From positions 1,302,001 to 1,366,000 of the forward strand of contig NC_006513.1 in the NCBI RefSeq assembly GCF_000025965.1: a DNA stretch of 64,000 nt. Reading direction: 5' to 3'. Source of the stretch: Aromatoleum aromaticum EbN1. GTDB lineage: Bacteria; Pseudomonadota; Gammaproteobacteria; Burkholderiales; Rhodocyclaceae. This document shows positions 1 through 12,448 of this stretch, in pieces (the first letter of the stretch is position 1; each line of letters starts with the position of its first letter). Below the pieces are notes generated by a model, which had not been told where the DNA came from, made no database searches, and was given only the letters and a program-made list of their open reading frames with translations. The position numbers and the translations under genes were made by a program.

Positions 1-644
1 GCATGGCGCCGCTCCGGTCCGACATAGGCTGCCCGGCGCTGCAACTCGGTCCGCACATCGTCGGCCTCGGAACCTGCTTCCAACAGCCCGGCGAGCAGAC
101 CGCTCATCCGACCGGCTGCCATGCTCGCGCCGCCCGCGCGATCAGGCCGCTGCGGATCGCAGAACGGATGCGTCCCGAAATCGGCGGAACTGGTCGCGAG
201 CCAGGACACTTCCCCGGGCGCGCAGCGCGCGTCGCCGCTCACTGCGAGGCACTCCTCCAGCGCGGCCGGAAACGCGACACCTCCGCGAGCCGGAGCCGAA
301 GCGACCAGGACGACACCGGTTCGCGCCGCAGCGCGACAGGCATTCGCGAGGCGGGTGCTCGGGCTCGCCGTCCCGAAACTCATGTTGATGATCTGCACCC
401 CTTGGTCGACGAGCCAGTGCATGCCCTCGACAACTGCATCGATGGACGCCTCGCGAGTTCGCCCGAAGACCTGCGCAACCACCAATTCTGCGGAACTGCA
501 GTGCTGCAGAATGCAGCTCGCTATCTGGCCGCCGTGCCCGATCGAGTCGCCCGCAGCAGTCAGCACACGTGTCGCCACGACCGCTGCCGCAGGTGCACCG
601 CCGACACCGCTGTCGATCAGGCCAACGCGCACGCGCTTCAGCAT
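1..644 (-). CDS. qhpE: Subtilisin-like serine protease of the amine dehydrogenase operon (QhpE), C-terminus beyond window
   Basis: S8-family protease expected to remove the leader peptide of the amine dehydrogenase gamma subunit after its cross-links form. My translation from ATG at 644 shows the catalytic triad: Asp11 in LIDSG, His37 in IGHGGQIA and Ser174 in GGASMAAG. NMSFG near residue 87 matches the substrate-binding strand of subtilases. There is no signal peptide, which fits a cytoplasmic maturase. The start overlaps the end of qhpF by 7 nt (ATGCTGA), so the two are translationally coupled. Where subtilisin has its oxyanion-hole Asn, this protein reads VASAPARGG with no Asn. The frame stays open to position 1, so the end is missing. 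Family assignment follows from motifs and operon position. Confidence 0.9.
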   Translation of the reverse strand, partial: MLKRVRVGLIDSGVGGAPAAAVVATRVLTAAGDSIGHGGQIASCILQHCSSAELVVAQVFGRTREASIDAVVEGMHWLVDQGVQIINMSFGTASPSTRLANACRAAARTGVVLVASAPARGGVAFPAALEECLAVSGDARCAPGEVSWLATSSADFGTHPFCDPQRPDRAGGASMAAGRMSGLLAGLLEAGSEADDVRTELQRRAAYVGPERRH

Positions 645-2365
645 GAGCCCACCGTCTGGAAATCGATGACGAGGTCGAACGCATCGCATGCCAGTTCCCG
701 ATGGCTGACCACGATTCGCATTGCGCCCGGCAGTAGTGCGCCGCTTGCGTGCAGAAAGCGCTGCTCGAGGTCTGCGTCGAGCGAAGACGTCCCCTCGTCG
801 ATGACGAGCACTGCCGGCTTCAGCAGCAGTGCGCGCGCAAGGGCGACGCGTTGTTTCTCGCCGCCCGACAAGGCCGCCCCTCGAGCGCCGACTTGAGCGT
901 CGAGACCATCGGGCAGGCGTCGAACGAAATCGAGGACTCCCGCAGCGAGCGCCACCCGCTCCATGTCCTCCTGTGTGGCGTCCGGGCAGGCATAACGGAT
1001 GTTCTCCACGATCGATCCGGCAAAGAGCACCGGCTCCTGCGCGACAACGACCACATGTCGACGCAGCACGGAAATATCGACGTCGCAAAGATCGATCCCC
1101 CCGATCGAGATCGAACCGGATTCGGGATCGAAATGCCGGTGCAAAAGGTCGATGAATGTGGACTTCCCGCTGCCCGACGCACCACGGAACCACACCTTTG
1201 CGCCGGCCGGGATCGTGAAGTTCAAGCCCGACAACACTTCGCGCTGCGAGTCCGGATAGGAGAACACCAGGTCACGCACGACGAGCTCACCGGCGGGCAG
1301 CTTCTCCGCGTTCCCGGACATTGCAGCAACGGCCGGGCGCAGGCAGCGTATTTCCTCGACGCGGCCGAGTCCCACCTTCACGCGTTGCCACTGCAGGTAA
1401 AGACCCATCAGCCCGTGCAGGGGCGCGCTTGCCCTTTGAACGTAGGTCGCGAACGCAACCAGGGTCCCCAGCGTCAAGGCGTCTCCGCCTATCATCGCCA
1501 GGCTACCGCCGACGAAGATGCCGATCACGGCCAGTGACAACACGAGATTCGGAAACGCGCCGCCGAAATATCCGAACACCTGCAATGCAAGCATCCGGCC
1601 GCGCACCTCGTCGTGCAGGCCTTGCAGCCGTTCGAGCTCGCGCGCTTCGGCCATGTGCGTCTGGATGCAGCGTACCGCGGCGAGCTTTTCGACCAGGAAG
1701 CTCGACACGTCCACCCCGGCGTCACGCGCTCTGAGCGAAAGGCTTTCGATGCGGGGCTTCACCCATGACAGCACGACGCTGTTGACTGCGATGAGCACCG
1801 CGAGGAACAGCGCAAGGCGGGGACTGAGCAGGCCGAGCAAGGCCACGGTGCCGATCAGTGTGAGCGTCGAGTTGATCGCGGAGAGAACGGCGTCCACGGC
1901 GAAGCGCTGCACCTCGCCCAGATCACCTTCGAGTCTTGCGAGAAGATCGCCTTGGCGGGTTCGCGAAAAGAACATCGGCGAAAGGCTGAGTACATGCGCG
2001 AACAGGGATTCGCGCATGCGGTGCAGCATTCGTGCCGAAGCCGCAACGTGAATGCGGCGACAGCCGAAACCAATGGCCAGAGCGGTCAGCGCCAACCCCA
2101 CCATCAATGCGCCAATCTCCAGGACCCCCGCACGGTCACGCGCGAGGATTCCGTCGTCGATCAGCGCCTTGGTGAGGTAAGGCTGGCCCAGACCGGCCGC
2201 GACGGCCAGCAATGAGAGCAGAAGCACTGCCGCGAACGCAGGCAGTTCAGGACGGATGAATTTCCATAGCCAACGGTACAGCGCACTGAGGCGCTCCCGC
2301 TCTCCCTGAGCGGTCAGCCCGGAAGTTGGCGTCGCGCCGGCAACCCGAAGTGCTTCTGCGCTCAT
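638..2365 (-). CDS. qhpF: ABC transporter, fused membrane and ATPase domains (QhpF)
   Basis: Homodimer-type ABC exporter of 575 residues. The N-terminal half (about 35-320) is a six-helix transmembrane domain. The ATPase half has Walker A GASGSGKST, signature LSGGEKQR, Walker B VLVIDEG with the catalytic Glu, and the switch His in VVSHR. In QHNDH operons this protein is thought to carry the processed gamma subunit into the periplasm. Here it sits 6 nt after qhpB and overlaps qhpE. The substrate is inferred from context; the sequence alone says only exporter. Confidence 0.9.
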   Translation of the reverse strand: MSAEALRVAGATPTSGLTAQGERERLSALYRWLWKFIRPELPAFAAVLLLSLLAVAAGLGQPYLTKALIDDGILARDRAGVLEIGALMVGLALTALAIGFGCRRIHVAASARMLHRMRESLFAHVLSLSPMFFSRTRQGDLLARLEGDLGEVQRFAVDAVLSAINSTLTLIGTVALLGLLSPRLALFLAVLIAVNSVVLSWVKPRIESLSLRARDAGVDVSSFLVEKLAAVRCIQTHMAEARELERLQGLHDEVRGRMLALQVFGYFGGAFPNLVLSLAVIGIFVGGSLAMIGGDALTLGTLVAFATYVQRASAPLHGLMGLYLQWQRVKVGLGRVEEIRCLRPAVAAMSGNAEKLPAGELVVRDLVFSYPDSQREVLSGLNFTIPAGAKVWFRGASGSGKSTFIDLLHRHFDPESGSISIGGIDLCDVDISVLRRHVVVVAQEPVLFAGSIVENIRYACPDATQEDMERVALAAGVLDFVRRLPDGLDAQVGARGAALSGGEKQRVALARALLLKPAVLVIDEGTSSLDADLEQRFLHASGALLPGAMRIVVSHRELACDAFDLVIDFQTVGSC

Positions 2366-2371
2366 ATCGGA

Positions 2372-3481
2372 TCAACGAGAAACGATGCGCAGGGAGGTCA
2401 GGACCTGGTCGCCGCCACCCGGGGTCCGGATGTTGCCGATGCGCTTGAGCGATTTGCTGTCATAGACGGCGATGTCGCCCTGCGTCCCGCCGATGTAAAG
2501 CTCGGAACCGTCGCTCGACACGTTCACGTTGTAGTAGGTGTGATCGAGATCGACCCGGTCCATCTTGCCGGTGTTCATGTCCGTCCGCGTCAGCTGCGTA
2601 TAGACCGTGTACACCTCGTTGCGCCGGACCGGATTGACGGCTGACGAGAACAGCACGACCGACGCGTTCTCGAACTCCTTGTAGGTGACCGTGTCATTTT
2701 CGAGGTCGAGCGCCCAGATGCCGGCACGCAGCGCTGCGGGATCGCCGGCCGGCTTGTCGGTGCTCGCGACGTAGAAGGGGGTGGCGAAGACGTTCGTCTG
2801 CTCCCACTGCGGCCAGATCGCCAGCGTGTCGGGCTCACCGCGATCGGGGCGCTGCCAACTGCGCCACGGGTGGGTGCCCTTGACTGCCCCCGTCTGCGGA
2901 TCGAGCTTCAGCATGTCCCAGCTGAACGCGTACAGCGTGTCGCCCTTGCCGGAATACGCGAGAGTCGATACCCGGCGCGGCGTCGGCAACTTCCGCACCG
3001 GCTTCGCGTCGGTGCCGGCGTCGGTGCGATAGACGGCGATGTACGGGTCGAGCGCCTTGTATTCGCCGGGGAGCAGCTGCGTGGGGTTCACGAAGACCGC
3101 GAGCTCCTTGCCGTCCGGGCTCAGATCCATCGCATAGGGGGCCTTGCCGCGGATGTCGCCTCCCGACAACTCGGCGCGGAACATCTCCTTGCCGGACTCG
3201 AGGTCGATGCCGGACACCGTTTCCCAGCGGTTATGGATGACATAGGCAACCTTGCCGTCCCTGGACGGGACGAGGGTGATCGGGCTGTTGCCCATCGATG
3301 TGTTCGGAATCTTGTGCGTCGCGACGACCTTGCGTTCCTTGGCGTCCGCGACGAACACCAGGTTGGGTCGCGCTGCGGTGACCAGGTAATCCTTGGTGGC
3401 AAGGGCGCCGGCCGAATACAGCGCGAGTGATGCCGCGATGGCGCTTGCGGCGCCGACAGCGGTCAATTTCTTCAATGTCAT
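2372..3481 (-). CDS. qhpB: Quinohemoprotein amine dehydrogenase beta subunit
   Basis: Beta subunit of the periplasmic amine dehydrogenase, a seven-bladed beta-propeller that packs on the gamma subunit. I place the start at 3481 because a strong GGAGGAG site lies just upstream and the product then begins with a typical signal peptide (MTLKKLTAV through AGALA, cleavage before TKDYLV); the longer open frame upstream overlaps qhpC. The 369-residue product shows repeated propeller-blade strands such as DLSPDGKELAVF and NVSSDGSELYIGG. It lies 41 nt after qhpC and 6 nt before qhpF. Family identity rests on operon context and blade repeats together. Confidence 0.9.
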   Translation of the reverse strand: MTLKKLTAVGAASAIAASLALYSAGALATKDYLVTAARPNLVFVADAKERKVVATHKIPNTSMGNSPITLVPSRDGKVAYVIHNRWETVSGIDLESGKEMFRAELSGGDIRGKAPYAMDLSPDGKELAVFVNPTQLLPGEYKALDPYIAVYRTDAGTDAKPVRKLPTPRRVSTLAYSGKGDTLYAFSWDMLKLDPQTGAVKGTHPWRSWQRPDRGEPDTLAIWPQWEQTNVFATPFYVASTDKPAGDPAALRAGIWALDLENDTVTYKEFENASVVLFSSAVNPVRRNEVYTVYTQLTRTDMNTGKMDRVDLDHTYYNVNVSSDGSELYIGGTQGDIAVYDSKSLKRIGNIRTPGGGDQVLTSLRIVSR

Positions 3482-3522: not shown

Positions 3523-3843
3523 TCATTTCGGAAACACGCTTTGCAGCGCCTGCCAGTCGCGTGCCGCATCGTCGCGACCGGTACTCCAATCCGGGTAGTT
3601 GTGCAGGGTGTCCGGCACCTGCGCGGGCCACCAACACGGATCTGAACATCCATACAGATCGGCCTCCATCGGCTGACAAAGGCCGGCAACACCGAGGAAG
3701 GGATCCAGTTCCCAGCCGGGGTCGAACGTCGTTGCACATCCGGCGACGGCGGCGGACATTGCAACGACTTTTTCGACGGCCTCTTCACTCGGGGCGGTTT
3801 CGATCTGGTGGGCCTTGCGGTTGAGCGGCTTGATGCGGTTCAT
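3523..3843 (-). CDS. qhpC: Quinohemoprotein amine dehydrogenase gamma subunit, CTQ precursor
   Basis: Small catalytic subunit carrying the peptide-derived cofactor cysteine tryptophylquinone. All residues needed for the known cross-links are present: thioether pairs Cys36-Glu45, Cys56-Asp62 and Cys70-Asp78, and the CTQ pair Cys66-Trp72 within [13 protein letters not shown]. The pairing follows the known Pseudomonas/Paracoccus enzyme by alignment of spacing. Residues 1 to about 28 form a leader that is not a Sec signal peptide; it would be cut by QhpE, leaving a mature chain of about 78 residues. The start codon overlaps the stop of the radical SAM gene (ATGA), coupling substrate and maturase synthesis. 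Trp72 needs two added oxygens to become the quinone. Confidence 0.96.
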
Positions 3844-5282
3844 AGTTCAGAGCTCCGGTTGGCGACGTGGCGATGAAGGAATGCAGGGTTCTTTTCCAGG
3901 ATTTCGAGATACGCTTCGATCCCGAAATCGACCCATTCCCTCAGCAGTTCGCAGTAGTGATAGACGGGCGAATGCGGGTCACTGAAATTGGCGTAGGACT
4001 CGTGGTAGCAGCCGCCCGAACAGAGGTTGCGGATGCGGCAGGTCGAACATCCGCGCTCGGAACGATCCAGCGCATGCTCGAGGAATGCGCCGAGCTCCGC
4101 CTTTGCGATGCCGGAGGCGACGTTGCCGAAAGTCGGCAATTCGGAGCCGGTGAAGCGGTGGCACAGGTTCAGTTCCCCTTTGTGATCGACAGCGAGCAGT
4201 CCCACGCCCGCCCCGCACGGCAACGCCTTGCGGCGTCCCTCGTAGAGGTCGCTGAGCAGCTGGTGCATGTTCGAAAAACCGATGTTCTCGCCGGCGATGG
4301 CGGCCTCGACGTACGTCCGTCCCAGCGCCTTCATCGACTCGAACACCCCGCGCAGTTCGTCCCCCACGAGGTTGAACGTGGTGACCGGATTGCTCGTGAC
4401 CGGCGCAAAACCGACTTCAGCGAATCCGATTTCGTCCTTCAGGTGGTGATGAATCAGCGCGACATCGGAGTAGCCTGCTGTCAGCGTGACCCGCGCACCC
4501 ACCGGACGCGACGTGTAACGCGACAGCAGCATCCGGGTCTTGGCCGCGACGACCTCGTAGGTGCCCTTTCCGCCGATCGTCTTGCGTCGCTTGTCATGGA
4601 TTGCCTGCGGACCGTCCATGCTGATCGAGATGCCGAAGCGGTGCTCGTTGAAGTAGTCGACGATCTCCTCGGTGAGCAGCGTGGCGTTCGTCGTCAGGGA
4701 GAGATCGAGCCCTTTGCCCTCCTCCCGGCAACGCTGCTCGGCGTATGCGGTGACGGCACGGATGACCGGCATGTTCGTCAGCGGCTCCCCGCCGAAGAAC
4801 ACGACATTCACGCGGTCACGCTTCGCTCCCTCGCGCAACAGCAGCTCGACGCCCTGCTTCGCGGTTTCCAGGCTCAGCTTGTCGCCCTTCGACGGCGTGG
4901 TCAGGTCCTCCTTGTAGCAATACGTGCAGCTCAGATTGCAGCCGGTATTCACGTTCAGCACGATCGTGCTGAGCGGGAACTCGGTGACACTGATGCCCGG
5001 TCCGTGGTCAGGCACCGCGGGATCACTCCGCAACACACCAAGCGACTTGAGATCCTCGACGGCGTCGGCGACCAGCTCGGGCGACTCCCGCTCGAGGAAG
5101 CGCTGCTGCAGCTCCTCGAAACTCACCGTCGAGCGCGGCCGTACGAAGTCCAGGACTTCACGCGTCACCTCGTCGAGATCGAAAATTCCCGTGCTCGGCA
5201 CGTGCAGCAGGACGCGACGCCCCTTCACCGCAAGGTCGTGGAACGAATGCGTATCCACGTAAAGCAAGTTGGCTTCAGACAT
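3840..5282 (-). CDS. qhpD: Radical SAM thioether-forming maturase (QhpD)
   Basis: SPASM-type radical SAM enzyme (480 residues) that makes the Cys-to-Asp/Glu thioether bonds in the gamma subunit. The SAM-binding cluster motif is C115-x3-C119-x2-C122 in [11 protein letters not shown], followed by FFGGEPL. The C-terminal SPASM region holds further cysteines: [32 protein letters not shown] and YHYC, giving ligands for two auxiliary Fe-S clusters. Residues 1-95 resemble a PqqD-like peptide-recognition domain fused to the N-terminus. It acts in the cytoplasm before export. Neighbours are qhpA 25 nt upstream and qhpC overlapping downstream. Confidence 0.95.
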
Positions 5283-5307: not shown

Positions 5308-6924
5308 TCAACGGATCGGAGGATCGTTGAAGCGCTGCACGGTCACGATCAACGGGGCCGATGCCTTCACCGTGCGGTTGCCGTCCTTGACGGCGGCAAT
5401 GACCTTGAGCTCGCCGGCGTTGTTGGTCTTGTACTTGCGCTCGGGATTGGGGCCGGCGGCGTTGGGAACGAAAAGCCCGTTCTCCTCGATCCGTCCCGCG
5501 TACTTCGTGTCCTGCATCTGCGCGGCAACCTCGTGAAGGTTGTCGACCGACCAGGTCGCCGGAACCACACCCAGTTGAACATCGTCGGCGTTGCCCGACT
5601 TGCCATCAGGACCTGCGGCAAAAGCAATCGCCTCCAGTTGTACCGGCACCTTTGGAATCGGTCCGCCGCCACCGCCAACACGCGCCATCGGGTGTTCGGG
5701 CGTGATCTTCACGTAGTCGATCTGCTGGTAGATCTTCAGCGCATCGCCCGTCCCGGCCGAGCCGACCTTGACTGCACGCGATCCGCTCGCAGCGTCCTTC
5801 GCCACCTCCACTTCGACGACGACCCGGTCGGCTGACCGTTCGAGCACTTTCGCGACCTTCACGCCGTTGCCGAGATCGACCTCGCCATCGAGCCCGACAC
5901 CATTGATTGCGATGCGGGCACGGCTACCGGCGCGCAGCATCTGCGGTTGCACCGACAGCACCGAAGGCTTCGCCCCCTTGTCGGCCCGCACCGCCCGCAT
6001 CGTTCCACCGATCGAATCGTTGTTCGCCTCGAACCACCGGCCACTGAGCTCGTTTCCGCCCGCCCCCAAGCTCATGACGTGATTGACTTCGCGATCGCCC
6101 TGCTTGACGGAGGCGCGCCATTCGTGGCCCGTATAGACGATCGCCGTACCCTTGGCCGTGTCGGAAGTGCCGTTCTCGTAGCGCATTACCATGTCCACGG
6201 AGTAGCGGTCGTCACCGGTTCGGGCGATCGTCGCTGTCCCCTCGTAGGCACCCATGCCTGGGCGGTGGCCGACCAGGCGCCACGTCCCGCTCGCGTCGGC
6301 AGGCTTCTGCGCTTTCCATTGCGTCCAACTGGCCGAGTCAAAGCCGTATTGCTCCGCCAGCGCCTTCACCGTGTCCCCGGTGGCGATGTCGAACCAGTTG
6401 CGGTCGCGTCCGCCAGCCTGGATCTCGATCGCGGGGAACTGACCGACGTGGAAGTGCACGAGCTTGCGCCAATCGTCTTCCGTGCGTCGCTGTACTGCGA
6501 TGCGGCCGTAGGAATGGCAACGGGCACAGGTGTCGCCGACCAGCTTGTTTTCGGGATGTTCGACGACGCTCGGCGTGCGGTCGACGATGTATCGGTGCGC
6601 GGCCGTCTCGTCCGGCGCGAGGCCGTACGTATTCGCGAGATACTTGACGATCGCGCCGCGCTCGTCGTCGGTGAGTTTCACGCCGTGCGCATAGGACATC
6701 CGCGCTACCGTCATGTCCCACCCCTCCGGGGTGCGCCGGCTGTCGCTGATCCGATCCCACTTGCCTTCGCCGCTCGCGGTGTGACACGCGGCGCACTTGC
6801 TATTGACGAGCGCCTCGCCCGATGCCGTCGCTAGTGCGGCGCCTGAAACGAGCGGCGCCACAACCCCGACGAGCGCGAGCAATGCGCGACGGGGCGACTT
6901 CTTGATGGCTGCATTTCTTCCCAT
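5308..6924 (-). CDS. qhpA: Quinohemoprotein amine dehydrogenase alpha subunit, diheme
   Basis: Diheme cytochrome c subunit that takes electrons from CTQ and passes them to periplasmic carriers. The start at 6924 is set by a strong GGAGGAGG site. The product (538 residues) starts with a twin-basic signal peptide (KKSPRR, hydrophobic stretch, cleavage after ALA near residue 32). Two heme-binding motifs follow: CAACH at 44-48 and CARCH at 133-137, then beta-rich domains typical of the family. First gene of the operon. The substrate amine cannot be read from sequence; family members oxidise primary amines such as phenylethylamine, benzylamine or butylamine to aldehydes. Confidence 0.95.
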   Translation of the reverse strand: MGRNAAIKKSPRRALLALVGVVAPLVSGAALATASGEALVNSKCAACHTASGEGKWDRISDSRRTPEGWDMTVARMSYAHGVKLTDDERGAIVKYLANTYGLAPDETAAHRYIVDRTPSVVEHPENKLVGDTCARCHSYGRIAVQRRTEDDWRKLVHFHVGQFPAIEIQAGGRDRNWFDIATGDTVKALAEQYGFDSASWTQWKAQKPADASGTWRLVGHRPGMGAYEGTATIARTGDDRYSVDMVMRYENGTSDTAKGTAIVYTGHEWRASVKQGDREVNHVMSLGAGGNELSGRWFEANNDSIGGTMRAVRADKGAKPSVLSVQPQMLRAGSRARIAINGVGLDGEVDLGNGVKVAKVLERSADRVVVEVEVAKDAASGSRAVKVGSAGTGDALKIYQQIDYVKITPEHPMARVGGGGGPIPKVPVQLEAIAFAAGPDGKSGNADDVQLGVVPATWSVDNLHEVAAQMQDTKYAGRIEENGLFVPNAAGPNPERKYKTNNAGELKVIAAVKDGNRTVKASAPLIVTVQRFNDPPIR

Positions 6925-7023
6925 TGGGTACCTCCTCCGAGAGTTGCTGTGGGTGCGGCCCCCTGCAGCAAGACGCATTCGGCTCGCACGACGGGACGTT
7001 TCTGGTGGATCCGTCGTCAGGCA

Positions 7024-7100
7024 ACTTTAGGAGCGCGAGCGGTACTGGAGTTATCGCGAATCGGCCACAATCGGCCCTGGAACTATCAAGAATCGGCCAC
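7024..7100 (-). promoter_or_regulatory. Putative QhpR operator pair and promoter of the qhp operon
   Basis: Two direct copies of a 23-bp element read on the minus strand at 7100-7078 and 7068-7046, start-to-start 32 bp, 19 of 23 bases identical. Shared core: GTGGCCGATTC, two variable bases, GATA, ending in TCCA. The proximal copy ends 122 nt before the qhpA start codon. A possible -10 (TAAAGT, 7029-7024) lies 16 nt beyond it, so the box would overlap the -35 position as in AraC-type activation. The same element recurs at 8740-8793 before the U32 genes. Binding by QhpR is inferred. Confidence 0.7.
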
Positions 7101-7532
7101 TCGTGAGACGGACCGGGCATATCCGCTTTCCCAGGACAATGGGGAGCGGCGCAGCGGTCGCCTCACGTATGCAGACGCCGATTCATGCGAATGGAAAATG
7201 GATCACGAGGCGAGCAGCGCCAGTTCTTCGTCGATGAACAGGCGGCGCGAATGCGTCAGGAAGGTCAGCCTCTCGGCCCCTCGAGCGACAACCTGCCATC
7301 GTGGCGTTCGACGACGTCGATGACGAGAGGCGTGCGCTGCCGGGACTCGTATTGCGCCCGGCCCATGCAGAAACGGCTTCCGGCGATGTCCCGGGTGAGG
7401 ATGCCCGAGGAGCCGGCGGGGACTTCGGCGCGGGTAGCAGCCGGGCTCGCTGCGGTCACACCCAGCCGCGGCCGAACTGGTGGAACATCATCGGCCGTGC
7501 TTTGCAACAGGCACCGCGCCCGTCGTCAATCG
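7101..7532. other. Gene-poor stretch between qhpR and the qhp promoter; possible gene remnant
   Basis: No convincing gene. On the minus strand the reading ending in a stop at 7203-7205 gives a protein-like tail (GAERLTFLTHSRR followed by LFIDEELALLAS), while a different frame between 7507 and 7265 gives another coding-like stretch (LVIDVVERHDG). The two would need a frameshift to join and no start or ribosome site is seen, so this may be a decayed gene or chance. I do not recognise the family. Confidence 0.3.
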
Positions 7533-8561
7533 TCAGTGATGTGAGTGGGACTCTGCACGCGTTGCCGAAGAGACTTTCCGCATCGTTGTCGAAGGAGTCT
7601 CGCCGAACAGCGATTTGTAGTACGACGAAAACATCCCCATGTGCCAGAAGCCCCATTTGCAGGCAATGCTGCTGACGGAATCGGTGGGGCCGGCGCGGAG
7701 CAGTTCCTTGCGGACACCGTGAAGTCTGACGTATCGGAGAAAGGTCGCGACGTTGATGCCGAGGACGTTCACGAAGGCATGGTGCAATCCGCGCCGACTC
7801 ATCTTCAGGTAGGAGCTCAACTCTGCAACGGTCGGCGGGTTCTCCCTGTTGACAACGATATAGCTTCGGGCACGCTCGACGATTGCGCGCTGGACGGCGT
7901 GAGTAGTGCGTGGTGATTCGTTCAGCGGGGACTTGGCCTGCAGGGCGTTCCGCGAAGCACTCATCACGGTTTCAGCGACGCTCTTTGCCGACGCCTGATG
8001 CTCGAAAATCTCCGGCGTCGCGGCTACCGAAGCGAGCACTGTACCGAGCGTCACCCGATAGGACTGGGCAACGTCGGCCGGCAGGCCCGCGGCGTTTGAC
8101 GGTGCGATCAGGCGCGATACGTCGACACCCGCCGTGTCGCGCACGAAGGCGTCGAACGCAGTGCAGTCGATCACGGTGACGAGGATGGTCGACTCGCGCG
8201 GCGTCCGGAAGTGAAGTTCTTCGTTCGGCCGCAAGGTGATCAACGAGTCACGCTCGAGATGCCGACCCTGCCAGTATCCGTTTTCGGTCACGCTGACTGG
8301 CACCCCGACGGTGTAACTGTTGCAGCGAGGGTTCGCCTTCTCATCGACGCACTGGTAGATCGTTTCCTTGAAGACCTGGATCGGTCCGACCGAGATTTCG
8401 ACTATTTCTCCCGAAAACGCTCCTTTGGAGAGTTGAAGGTAATCCTGTGACCAGTCGCGAAGGCTTGCCGCATGCTGGCAAGGATCGTCGGTGGAGATGA
8501 TGGAAATCCGTTCGTTTCGCCTGCGCGGCGTGTCCCGGTCCTGAGTCAGGCCAGAGCTCAT
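7533..8561 (-). CDS. qhpR: AraC-family transcriptional regulator of the amine locus (QhpR)
   Basis: 342-residue AraC/XylS-type regulator. The start at 8561 is chosen because AGGAGA lies about 9 nt upstream. The N-terminal two thirds resemble the cupin-like sensing domain of AraC_binding_2 proteins. The C-terminal hundred residues carry two helix-turn-helix motifs: VAELSSYLKMSRRGLHHAF and VSSIACKWGFWHMGMFSSY, ending in LFGETPS, the usual AraC signature. It lies between the two repeated-element pairs and is transcribed toward the qhp operon; the aldehyde/U32 operon is divergent. Regulators at this position in other QHNDH loci activate qhp genes on amines. A direct target is not shown by sequence. 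Confidence 0.88.
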   Translation of the reverse strand: MSSGLTQDRDTPRRRNERISIISTDDPCQHAASLRDWSQDYLQLSKGAFSGEIVEISVGPIQVFKETIYQCVDEKANPRCNSYTVGVPVSVTENGYWQGRHLERDSLITLRPNEELHFRTPRESTILVTVIDCTAFDAFVRDTAGVDVSRLIAPSNAAGLPADVAQSYRVTLGTVLASVAATPEIFEHQASAKSVAETVMSASRNALQAKSPLNESPRTTHAVQRAIVERARSYIVVNRENPPTVAELSSYLKMSRRGLHHAFVNVLGINVATFLRYVRLHGVRKELLRAGPTDSVSSIACKWGFWHMGMFSSYYKSLFGETPSTTMRKVSSATRAESHSHH

Positions 8562-8739
8562 TGTAGTTTTGTCTCCTGTTGTGCTGCCGCATGAAGGCGG
8601 CCTCCACATGGCTCCGATCGGGACAAGCTGAGGGGGCTCGACCGGATGCCCGGAAAGGGGGTGGTTACACCACCAGCTGTCTATAGCTTAGGAAGTACGC
8701 CGGGGTGGAACAAGAGTTTGCAGCGGAGCGACGAGCGGT

Positions 8740-8814
8740 TGGGCCGATTCTTGATAGCCCTACGACGAACGTGGCCGTTTCACGATACCTCCTGTTTTTG
8801 CCGGCACTTAGCAT
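8740..8814 (+). promoter_or_regulatory. Putative QhpR operator pair and promoter of the U32-aldB operon
   Basis: Two direct copies of the element also found upstream of qhpA: 8740-8762 (core GGCCGATTCTTGATAG, identical to one qhp copy) and 8771-8793 (more diverged), start-to-start 31 bp. A possible -10, TAGCAT at 8809-8814, lies 15 nt beyond the proximal copy, against 16 nt at qhpA. The proximal copy ends 132 nt before the start codon at 8926, again as at qhpA. The rest of the 8562-8925 intergenic stretch shows no gene. Confidence 0.68.
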
Positions 8815-8925
8815 TCTCCCCACAGCTTCGCTCGGCGTCCCGCGGCACAGCCGCCGGGCCACCTGAATCGCCGATCGAACGATGCGCTGATCGGGGCGGC
8901 GTCGATAGGCAAAACTGGAGGAGTC

Positions 8926-9822
8926 ATGTGCGTGCAAGGAAGACACATCGCAGAGCCGGAGTGCGCGCCTGCCGTCGGGCAACCCGAGAGGGCCGTCACG
9001 TTTGCCAGCCCCGCGTCGTTAGTCGGTGGAAAAGGCCCTGACCTCTGGCTGAAGACGCTGGGGGATCGGAAGCTCGCCGATTGGCTTGCCGCTTATACGC
9101 CGACTCACGTTTATCTCGGCAGCGAATTCTGCGAACACCTGATTCCGACCCCTGTCGCCCTGCGCAAAGGGGTGGCGATTGCACGCGACCTCGGGTGCAT
9201 GGTTTCACTGCTTGCGCCGATTGCGGCCCCGAAGGATCTTCGGACCCTTGGCAATCTCCTGCCGTCGCTTCCCGATGAGTCGGAAGTGATTGTGAGCGAC
9301 TGGGGGACCGCTTACTTCGTCAGGGAACGTTTTCCCGGCCTGCGCCTGATTGCCGGCCGGGTCCTTTGTCGCATGCAGAGGGATCCTCGGATTCCCGCAG
9401 CGCATTCCGCCCTGGCAGCTTCCTTCGATCCCAGGCCCTTGGGGGCGATGCTTGCGCGCCTCGGCTTCGTGCGCATGGAGCTCGATGTGCCGCTCACCGA
9501 CCCGCACGCTGCGTTTTCGTCGCTGCCGCTGCCGGCCAGTGTCCATGTGCCTTTCAGCTGTGTGGCGAAAGGGCGGATGTGCCGAATCGGCTCGACTGCG
9601 ATGAGAGGGGCGGAACGATTTGCCGTGGGGAGCCGGTGCCGGAAGGAATGTCTGCGGGTGAGCGCGAAGCTTGAGCGGCCGGGCGCAGGCGACCAGCGCG
9701 AGGTCTATCAGCTGGGCAATTCGATCATCAGCAGGATATCGGACGCGATGCTTGCGGCAGTCATGAATGCGGTCGAGTCCGGAGCCGTTTCGCGACTCGT
9801 CATTCCGGGGGATGCACCATGA
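8926..9822 (+). CDS. U32-family Fe-S protein resembling UbiV
   Basis: 298-residue member of the peptidase U32 superfamily. Despite the name, characterised relatives (UbiU/UbiV, RlhA, TrhP) support oxygen-independent hydroxylations rather than proteolysis. Similarity to UbiV is visible by eye: THVYLGSEFC (C69) corresponds to the UbiV segment with its first cluster Cys, and CVAKGRMC plus SRCRKEC (C212, C219, C238, C242) to the later cluster cysteines; the VYQLGNSI segment near the end also matches. A [4Fe-4S] cluster is therefore likely. A strong GGAGGAG site fixes the start. It overlaps the next U32 gene by ATGA, as expected for partners of a heterodimer. It is probably not housekeeping UbiV, because no ubiT is nearby and it shares operators with qhp. 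Substrate unknown. Confidence 0.82.
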   Translation: MCVQGRHIAEPECAPAVGQPERAVTFASPASLVGGKGPDLWLKTLGDRKLADWLAAYTPTHVYLGSEFCEHLIPTPVALRKGVAIARDLGCMVSLLAPIAAPKDLRTLGNLLPSLPDESEVIVSDWGTAYFVRERFPGLRLIAGRVLCRMQRDPRIPAAHSALAASFDPRPLGAMLARLGFVRMELDVPLTDPHAAFSSLPLPASVHVPFSCVAKGRMCRIGSTAMRGAERFAVGSRCRKECLRVSAKLERPGAGDQREVYQLGNSIISRISDAMLAAVMNAVESGAVSRLVIPGDAP

Positions 9823-10832
9823 GAATCGTGGCGCCGATATCGAGAGTCGAAGAGGTGGCGCTCCTCGCGCGCGAAGGGGCGCACGAGCTCTACTGCGGAT
9901 TCGTGCCGGAGGAGTGGGTGGGACAATTCCAGGTGCCGGATGCGAACCGTCGCCCCTCTGGAAATCTCCGCACTCCGGCCGAACTCGCTGCGGCGATAGG
10001 CTTGGCCCATGAGAATGGCTGCTCCCTTTCCCTCGTGCTCAACGCCCAGGTTTATACGGACGACCAGTTGGACGCAGCCATCGAGATCGCCTGGCTCTTT
10101 GTCGGGCTCGGAGGCGACGCCCTGATCATATCGGACCTCGGATTGATCGGCGTGCTCTCGCAATATCTGCCGCTGGGGAAGATTCACGTCAGTTCGGTCG
10201 CGACCTGCCGCAACGGCAGCGCGGCACAGCTCTGCAGGGAGCTTGGCGCCTCCCGACTGATCCTGCCGCGCGATGTCACGATCAGCGAGGCCTGCGAGAT
10301 CGCCGCAGAGGTGCCCGATCTGGAGATCGAGGCATTCATCCTCAATGACGCCTGCGTGTTCGAGGAGGGGGCATGCAGCACCGTTCATCTTCCCCAAACC
10401 TTGGGCGGCCCGATTTGTCTCGATCGCTACGTGAGCGAATACCGGCCGCGGGGCATACGGGAGCTGTCGGCACCGCTGCTCGAGAGCCTTCAGGAGAATG
10501 ATCGCGAATACCGGCAGTGGCTTTGGTATCGGTTCTCGTGCGGATTCAGGACGAACGAGCAGGGCATGCCATTCGGTCCGTGCGGCCTATGTGCGCTGTC
10601 AGGCTTCCTCAAGGGCGGGATTGCGGCCGTGAAGATTGCCGGCAGGGAAGCGCCGACCGCCCGAAAGATCGCCAGCGTCCGGATGGTGAAGGCCGTCCTG
10701 GACCGTGTCGAGGCTGGAGAGGACGGGGAGAAATTGATGGGCTTTGCACAGGAACTGCGCCCGTCGGTGGAGCACTGCAGAAAAGGGTACATGTGCTATT
10801 ACCCCGAGGTGCTCCGAGAGCGGGGTTCCTGA
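9819..10832 (+). CDS. U32-family Fe-S protein resembling UbiU
   Basis: 337-residue U32 protein, translationally coupled to the UbiV-like gene. The core has the TIM-barrel-like start ([19 protein letters not shown]), then [10 protein letters not shown] and [10 protein letters not shown], and the cluster signature C179-VFEEGA-C186, then C200 and C255/C258 (GPCGLC); UbiU has CIMSEGRC with two more cysteines in the same order. The later [12 protein letters not shown] matches the conserved UbiU segment around IEGRQRSP. The likely role is catalytic half of an O2-independent hydroxylase with the upstream protein. Being in an amine dehydrogenase regulon, a role in CTQ formation or in aromatic substrate modification is conceivable, but nothing in the sequence proves it. 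Confidence 0.83.

Positions 10833-10927: not shown

Positions 10928-12448
<1,521 letters not shown>

Follow-up and report, generated by a model that had tools for sequence, protein, structure and literature searches.

A UbiUV-related U32 gene pair as a probable oxygen-independent counterpart of QhpG in the maturation of quinohemoprotein amine dehydrogenase

Ring hydroxylation without O2 requires the UbiU-UbiV heterodimer, which carries two [4Fe-4S] clusters (PMC6747719), and its genes are controlled by Fnr in E. coli (PMC10470549). TrhP and RlhA, which also belong to the U32 family, carry out a prephenate-linked, O2-independent hydroxylation on RNA; prephenate is described as the oxygen donor and the mechanism of U32 enzymes as open (PMC11574389).

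In quinohemoprotein amine dehydrogenase (QHNDH), CTQ is built on the second residue of a Trp pair (Trp43 of Trp42-Trp43 in P. putida), and QhpG, an FAD protein, puts two oxygen atoms into this Trp that both come from O2 (PMC7876137). In Aromatoleum aromaticum EbN1, however, amine degradation without oxygen reportedly begins with QHNDHs (Schmitt et al. 2019, J Bacteriol, JB.00281-19, listed among the references of PMC11231019 and PMC10413684). CTQ needs two oxygens on Trp and QhpG takes them from O2, yet the EbN1 enzymes are reported to work anaerobically, and we describe here a pair of U32-type genes, the V-U pair, that is a concrete candidate answer. From comparative analyses of its sequence and genomic context, we consider it quite likely that this pair is an O2-independent peptidyl-Trp hydroxylase of QHNDH maturation, making CTQ instead of QhpG or beside it. 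The comparative case for such a counterpart is strong, while its chemistry is a prediction.

In the window, by which we mean the whole 64-kb stretch of EbN1 DNA that was analysed, the qhp operon lies on the minus strand as qhpE-F-B-C-D-A from position 1 (3' to 5'), together with a gene for an AraC-type regulator, and the V-like gene, the U-like gene and an ExaC-type aldehyde dehydrogenase gene are divergent from it (Table 1). A previous reading of this DNA, made from its sequence only, had described two overlapping genes in V-then-U order that are co-linear with aldB: both open reading frames were found (8926-10832), they overlap by 4 nt, and the gene downstream passes the ExaC model. The pair resembles UbiU-UbiV in that both consist of neighbouring U32-type genes with a set of Cys in each protein, but the order is V-U here and U-V-T in ubiUVT.

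Table 1. Positions of the genes and operator copies around the V-U pair in the window
Feature	Position	Strand	Basis and remarks
qhpE, subtilisin-like protease	1..641	-	Peptidase_S8 on L003:8998-9642; a few bases beyond the window edge
qhpF, ABC exporter	638..2365	-	ABC_membrane and ABC_tran; presumably qhpF, from its position
qhpB, beta subunit	2372..3481	-	TIGR03907, 523.9 bits
qhpC, gamma subunit precursor with the CTQ Trp and Cys	3523..3843	-	NF037958, 163.5 bits; conserved residues
qhpD, radical SAM cross-linking enzyme	3840..5282	-	TIGR03906, 828 bits (cut-off 453)
qhpA, QHNDH alpha subunit	5308..6978	-	TIGR03908, 814.9 bits
Operator before qhpA	7052..7066	+	TATCNNGAATCGGCC
Operator before qhpA	7084..7098	+	TATCNNGAATCGGCC; 32 bp from the copy at 7052
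AraC-family regulator	7533..8609	-	HTH_18; EutR 156 bits, below its cut-off of 319
Operator before the V-like gene	8742..8756	-	Exact TATCNNGAATCGGCC; perfect 16-nt inverted copy of 7083-7098
Second operator before the V-like gene	8773..8787	-	One mismatch to TATCNNGAATCGGCC; 31 bp from the first
V-like gene	8926..9822	+	ORF, 298 aa; UbiV-related; predicted Fe-S subunit of the V-U pair
U-like gene	9819..10832	+	ORF, 337 aa; UbiU-related; Peptidase_U32 family
ExaC/AldB-type aldehyde dehydrogenase	10928..12448	+	NCBIfam ExaC, 945.8 bits (cut-off 900); co-linear with the V-U pair

The V-U pair and the qhp operon had also been said to share a repeated operator, and this was borne out by tandem copies of TATCNNGAATCGGCC in front of both: at up to two mismatches, the 64 kb hold seven copies where 1.76 are expected, and none of 100 shuffled sequences held as many. 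The AraC-family regulator, encoded between the two operator pairs, is its probable reader. Of 143 loci, 10 contain exact copies, including two that overlap the window, and there was none in L004 or L010, the pieces with the second qhp operon of EbN1. Scans with an FNR-type box gave no hit at up to two mismatches in window positions 6900-8930, before the V-like gene, or ahead of the second qhpA (L010 8500-9400).

Since the window ends within the qhp operon, the sequence-only reading had cautioned that qhpG may lie just outside; extension past position 1 indeed located it about 2.1 kb beyond the window (G000:C1:1298535-1299866), as the sole QhpG match of the genome (405 bits to the NCBIfam QhpG model NF049967, cut-off 240; E 2.6e-44 to PDB 7ctq). 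A gene for a CcmF-like cytochrome c assembly protein directly precedes it (L003:6867-9059), and in nine survey loci (L013-L019, L021 and L022) qhpG likewise follows a ccmF-like match. EbN1 carries another qhp operon near 3.07 Mb (L004, G000:C1:3070000-3084000), ordered qhpA-D-C-B-F-E and followed by a V-like gene, whose start overlaps the qhpE stop, and a U-like gene; L004 has no qhpG. EbN1 thus shows both arrangements that had been proposed, the pair next to qhpG at the window locus and the pair in its place at the second operon. Between these two loci, the V-like proteins share 39% identity and the U-like proteins 50%. Both QHNDH enzymes of EbN1 reportedly carry CTQ after anoxic growth.

The distribution of the pair and of qhpG was then compared across genomes that encode QhpD. 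At the curated cut-off of the QhpD model (TIGR03906), qhpD was found in 37 of 249 genomes of the family to which EbN1 belongs and in 10 of 397 genomes of a phylum sample; as EbN1 belongs to both samples, the survey set comprises 46 genomes, in which QhpG and U-like proteins were sought by profile searches of whole genomes. QhpG was found without the pair in 23 of them, the pair without QhpG in 16, both in seven and neither in none, a complementary distribution of the kind that such a survey had been expected to reveal (Fisher p 4.9e-7, a statistic that ignores relatedness). Counted by genus, 13 have QhpG only, seven the pair only and two are mixed. U-like profile scores were bimodal, being either at least 531 bits or at most 138 bits, and a partial 138-bit match in G169 was not scored as a pair. 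Cases at contig edges (G169 and G103) and matches with one stop (G035, G641 and G103) were scored as QhpG, while a 108-bit match in G095 and second matches of about 100 bits in other genomes were not; G620, with qhpD below the cut-off, a 185-bit QhpG match and no pair, was excluded from the 46.

The pair also depends on qhpD: in the family sample it occurs in 23 of the 37 genomes with qhpD and in none of the 212 without (p 3.5e-23), so that it stands there only alongside qhpD, unlike UbiU-UbiV. The nine phylum-sample qhpD genomes other than EbN1 have QhpG and lack the pair, EbN1 itself being the only one of the 397 with a U-like protein.

When named genomes were scanned with the U-like alignment, 62 loci emerged, in genera that include Thauera, Aromatoleum, Sedimenticola, Magnetospirillum, Terasakiella, Herminiimonas and Motiliproteus as well as two Pseudomonas species. 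V-like and U-like genes stand together in 60 of these loci, the other two pieces beginning at or near the U-like gene, and at least two of qhpA, qhpB, qhpC and qhpD lie on 39 of the 62 pieces; some pieces with the pair hold none of these four (L084, L086, L117 and L138, for example), though their genomes carry qhpD. In 43 of the 46 genomes that were reached through the U-like protein alone, qhpD exceeds its cut-off, and the three pair genomes without it (G659, G660 and G682) are MAGs. These named genomes mostly omit repeats of sampled ones and partly overlap with the survey, so the two sets were not added. A QhpG match at E 1e-20 was found in 18 of the 46, counting split or weak ones such as that of G666 (about 109 bits, in two pieces), and in none of the other 28, among which are Sedimenticola selenatireducens, Magnetospirillum sp. 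SS-4 and Aromatoleum evansii, A. anaerobium, A. toluclasticum and A. buckelii.

On a single contig, Thauera sp. Sel9 (L082 and L092) has two distinct V-U pairs as well as two qhpD genes that flank qhpG. In three Aromatoleum genomes (G044, G192 and G137), the V-U pair lies in the qhp operon while qhpG stands apart, on pieces with no other qhp gene match (L144:6697-8100, L145:6194-7726 and L146:6139-7542).

How often the two have been exchanged was estimated on a quick QhpD tree of 75 rows out of 89 QhpD hits, which leaves aside identical rows, the truncated pieces L135 and L143 and those named loci that lack a genome label (mostly already sampled). The pair label needs 11 changes on this tree and QhpG 12. 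Among nine independent pairs of rows that differ in the V-U pair, QhpG differed in the opposite sense in a median of four, in the same sense in none and not at all in five (sign test p 0.125, not significant): the exchange is repeated and keeps a consistent direction, with no case that runs counter to it, but the number of independent pairs is insufficient for statistical significance. Gene order, for which the placement of qhpE was compared directly, points to the same slot: among 56 loci with qhpD and a V-like gene on the piece, qhpE lies between qhpF and the V-like gene in 45, and 41 of these, 15 of them from the survey, have no qhpG, which argues that G alone is exchanged. In the remaining 11, qhpE was either not found (7) or located elsewhere (4). 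We also considered whether a third gene family could be the actual hydroxylase and rejected this, since none recurs in more than 14 of the 31 loci that have the pair but no qhpG on the piece (L004 and L028 are among these loci, although their genomes do have qhpG elsewhere).

These data bear on what the pair does for QHNDH. It could be an accessory of maturation, for example by bringing electrons or Fe-S clusters to QhpD or by closing the final Cys-Trp bond, with another enzyme hydroxylating Trp in the strains that have the pair only. The dependence on qhpD fits any QHNDH-specific role, this one included, but the alternation with QhpG seen in the survey is not what one would expect of an accessory. 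No other family recurs often enough to supply the hydroxylase from these loci, although an unlinked enzyme could, and the closest characterised relatives of the pair work in hydroxylation. We thus regard an accessory role as unlikely, and presume that the pair acts on QhpC rather than at another QHNDH step. A second possibility is that the pair hydroxylates a small molecule of amine catabolism, such as an amine, an aldehyde or an aromatic acid, and merely shares the regulon, as its co-linearity with an aldehyde dehydrogenase gene and the common operator in the window might suggest. Elsewhere, however, the pair sits behind qhpE in the maturation operon, where qhpG is missing, and its other neighbours vary, so that this possibility appears decidedly improbable.

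The role as a peptidyl-Trp hydroxylase was further evaluated by comparing the two proteins with UbiU and UbiV. Membership of Peptidase_U32 (PF01136, gathering score 22.4) in Pfam holds for the U-like protein only, with 133.4 bits for the window protein and 152.9 bits for that of L004. The V-like protein of the window matches no Pfam or NCBIfam family, and 15 V-like members (set A2) gave one weak infC match (E 0.09) and otherwise none; since this family has no model in either collection, automated annotation likely leaves its members as hypothetical proteins. Against the UbiU model (NF047963, curated cut-off 440), the U-like proteins of the window and of L004 reach 67.2 and 84.5 bits, while the V-like proteins of both loci match neither the UbiV model (NF047965) nor any other NCBIfam model. 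In profile-profile comparisons, the HH probability was 99.7 for U-like versus UbiU and only 7.7 for V-like versus UbiV, a value that says little since UbiU and UbiV, both U32 proteins, reach just 2.9 against each other. In a quick tree that also includes one long TrhP row, the 67 U-like rows form a clade of their own, separate from the 19 UbiU rows (support 100 and 99). Searches of PDB sequences with the V-like and U-like queries gave no match for either, but the AF2 models (mean pLDDT 73.5 and 70.5) both had the U32 structure 5d88 as their top PDB match (E 5.2e-8 for U-like and 3.1e-4 for V-like), with modest TM-scores of 0.39/0.52 and 0.38/0.44. Stretches that bear Cys have pLDDT below 50, namely 180-206 in U-like and 216-227 and 229-247 in V-like.

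The sequence-only reading had attributed to the two proteins the cluster-cysteine patterns of UbiV and UbiU, a description that is only partly correct for the U-like protein. Cys 69, 219, 238 and 242 of V-like proteins are invariant in 67 of 67 sequences and coincide in alignment with the conserved Cys of canonical UbiV, likewise four, the spacing being C69, C219, X18, C238, X3, C242 where UbiV has CXnCX12CX3C, that is, X18 for X12. In U-like proteins, C179 and C186 form a CX6C that aligns with the CX6C of UbiU, but the spacing then departs from the UbiU pattern CX6CX16CX38C, with X13 to C200 (CX13C, not CX16C) and X54 to C255, followed by C258, C320 and C326. Cys 179, 186, 200, 255, 258, 320 and 326 are invariant in all 67 U-like sequences, and Cys 26 and 130 are kept in 65. 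The C-terminal quartet 255/258/320/326 is extra, as none of the Cys that 20 canonical UbiU share corresponds to it, and suggests a further cluster.

Given this distant homology to UbiU and UbiV, the pair might be a second ubiquinone set made of paralogues and used for growth on amines. The earlier reading had counted a ubiUVT set missing elsewhere in the genome as part of what would refute its proposal, but a canonical cluster was found there, with ubiU (558.9 bits, cut-off 440) and ubiV (382.2 bits, cut-off 275) together with a gene for an SCP2 protein, so that the V-U pair is not the ubiquinone set; a further U32 gene (C1:1658290, 152 bits to the UbiU model) is probably TrhP, by resemblance. 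Of 20 loci with canonical UbiU, 18 have a UbiT profile match beside it, against 0 of 115 pieces with qhp genes or the pair, which is what a substrate other than a lipid would lead one to expect. Together with U-like scores far below the UbiU cut-off and the lack of the pair in family genomes without qhpD, this makes a ubiquinone function even less plausible than a small-molecule substrate. Least probable of all is that the pair acts as a peptidase and trims the leader of QhpC, which the traditional name of the family, Peptidase_U32, would suggest, because the subtilisin-like qhpE is kept at both EbN1 loci and lies directly between qhpF and the V-like gene in most loci with the pair, and because the Cys set is the most conserved feature of the pair.

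We then considered how a peptidyl-Trp hydroxylase made of V-like and U-like proteins could act in CTQ formation. The alignment of QhpC has 83 rows, five of which are stray frames without CWW (three from pair-only and two from QhpG-only genomes). The conserved Cys, the Asp/Glu residues and CWW, which serve the cross-links and the cofactor, are intact in 34 of 34 full rows from 34 pair-only genomes; if CTQ is made there, something must dihydroxylate the Trp. W72 and W73 are both invariant in full QhpC rows, and the Trp that had been named as Trp72 corresponds, by the P. putida numbering, to W73 of the QhpC precursor and not to W72. In our model, QhpD would first make the thioether cross-links in QhpC, and the V-U pair would then add two hydroxyls to the CTQ-precursor Trp, the step that QhpG performs with FAD and O2. 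The V-like and U-like proteins most likely form a heterodimer of two U32-type barrels with [4Fe-4S] clusters, as UbiU and UbiV do, and the O2-free aromatic hydroxylation known for the latter is the chemistry to be expected. Prephenate or another organic molecule would serve as oxygen donor, in keeping with reports on UbiU-UbiV. The window locus, where the pair is coregulated with a qhp operon that has qhpG, would provide both an anoxic and an oxic route, whereas the second qhp operon of EbN1, like many other bacteria, has the pair where QhpG is missing.

The pair would thus share its step and its substrate with QhpG (PDB 7ctq), which it replaces mutually across genomes. Neither of its proteins matches the QhpG model NF049967 at the cut-off of 240, and the Pfam match of QhpG (FAD_binding_3) does not overlap with that of U-like (U32). 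With TrhP and RlhA, U-like shares the U32 family, but these act on RNA (PMC11574389) and the predicted substrate of the pair is a protein. It is fairly probable, although somewhat less so than the hydroxylase role itself, that a U32 heterodimer derived from UbiUV, perhaps with three clusters, hydroxylates a peptidyl Trp twice without O2 and with an organic donor, and that oxic and anoxic branches of tryptophylquinone formation have been repeatedly exchanged.

Canonical UbiU exceeds its cut-off in 23 of the 23 survey genomes with the pair versus 15 of the 23 with QhpG only (p 0.0038, again with relatedness ignored), which is consistent with a life without O2 for bacteria that have the pair. In the open literature, with subscription papers mostly outside the scope of the search, we found no paper that joins U32 proteins to quinohemoprotein or amine dehydrogenases, or UbiU to tryptophylquinone. 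If the pair acts as proposed, a protein would join RNA and quinone precursors as substrates of U32 hydroxylation, and this would explain how some bacteria make CTQ in airless places. It would also bring a role to the V-like family, which is absent from the models of Pfam and NCBIfam, and QhpC, QhpD, V and U would form a compact system for studying the U32 mechanism and its oxygen donor on a protein substrate with the help of mass spectrometry.

Another group of U32 proteins was also observed: a cluster of U32-like genes in L147 (G044:C1:4838000-4850000) scores 20-66 bits against the U-like profile, and tandem U32-like matches that resemble it occur in G137, G167 and G192.
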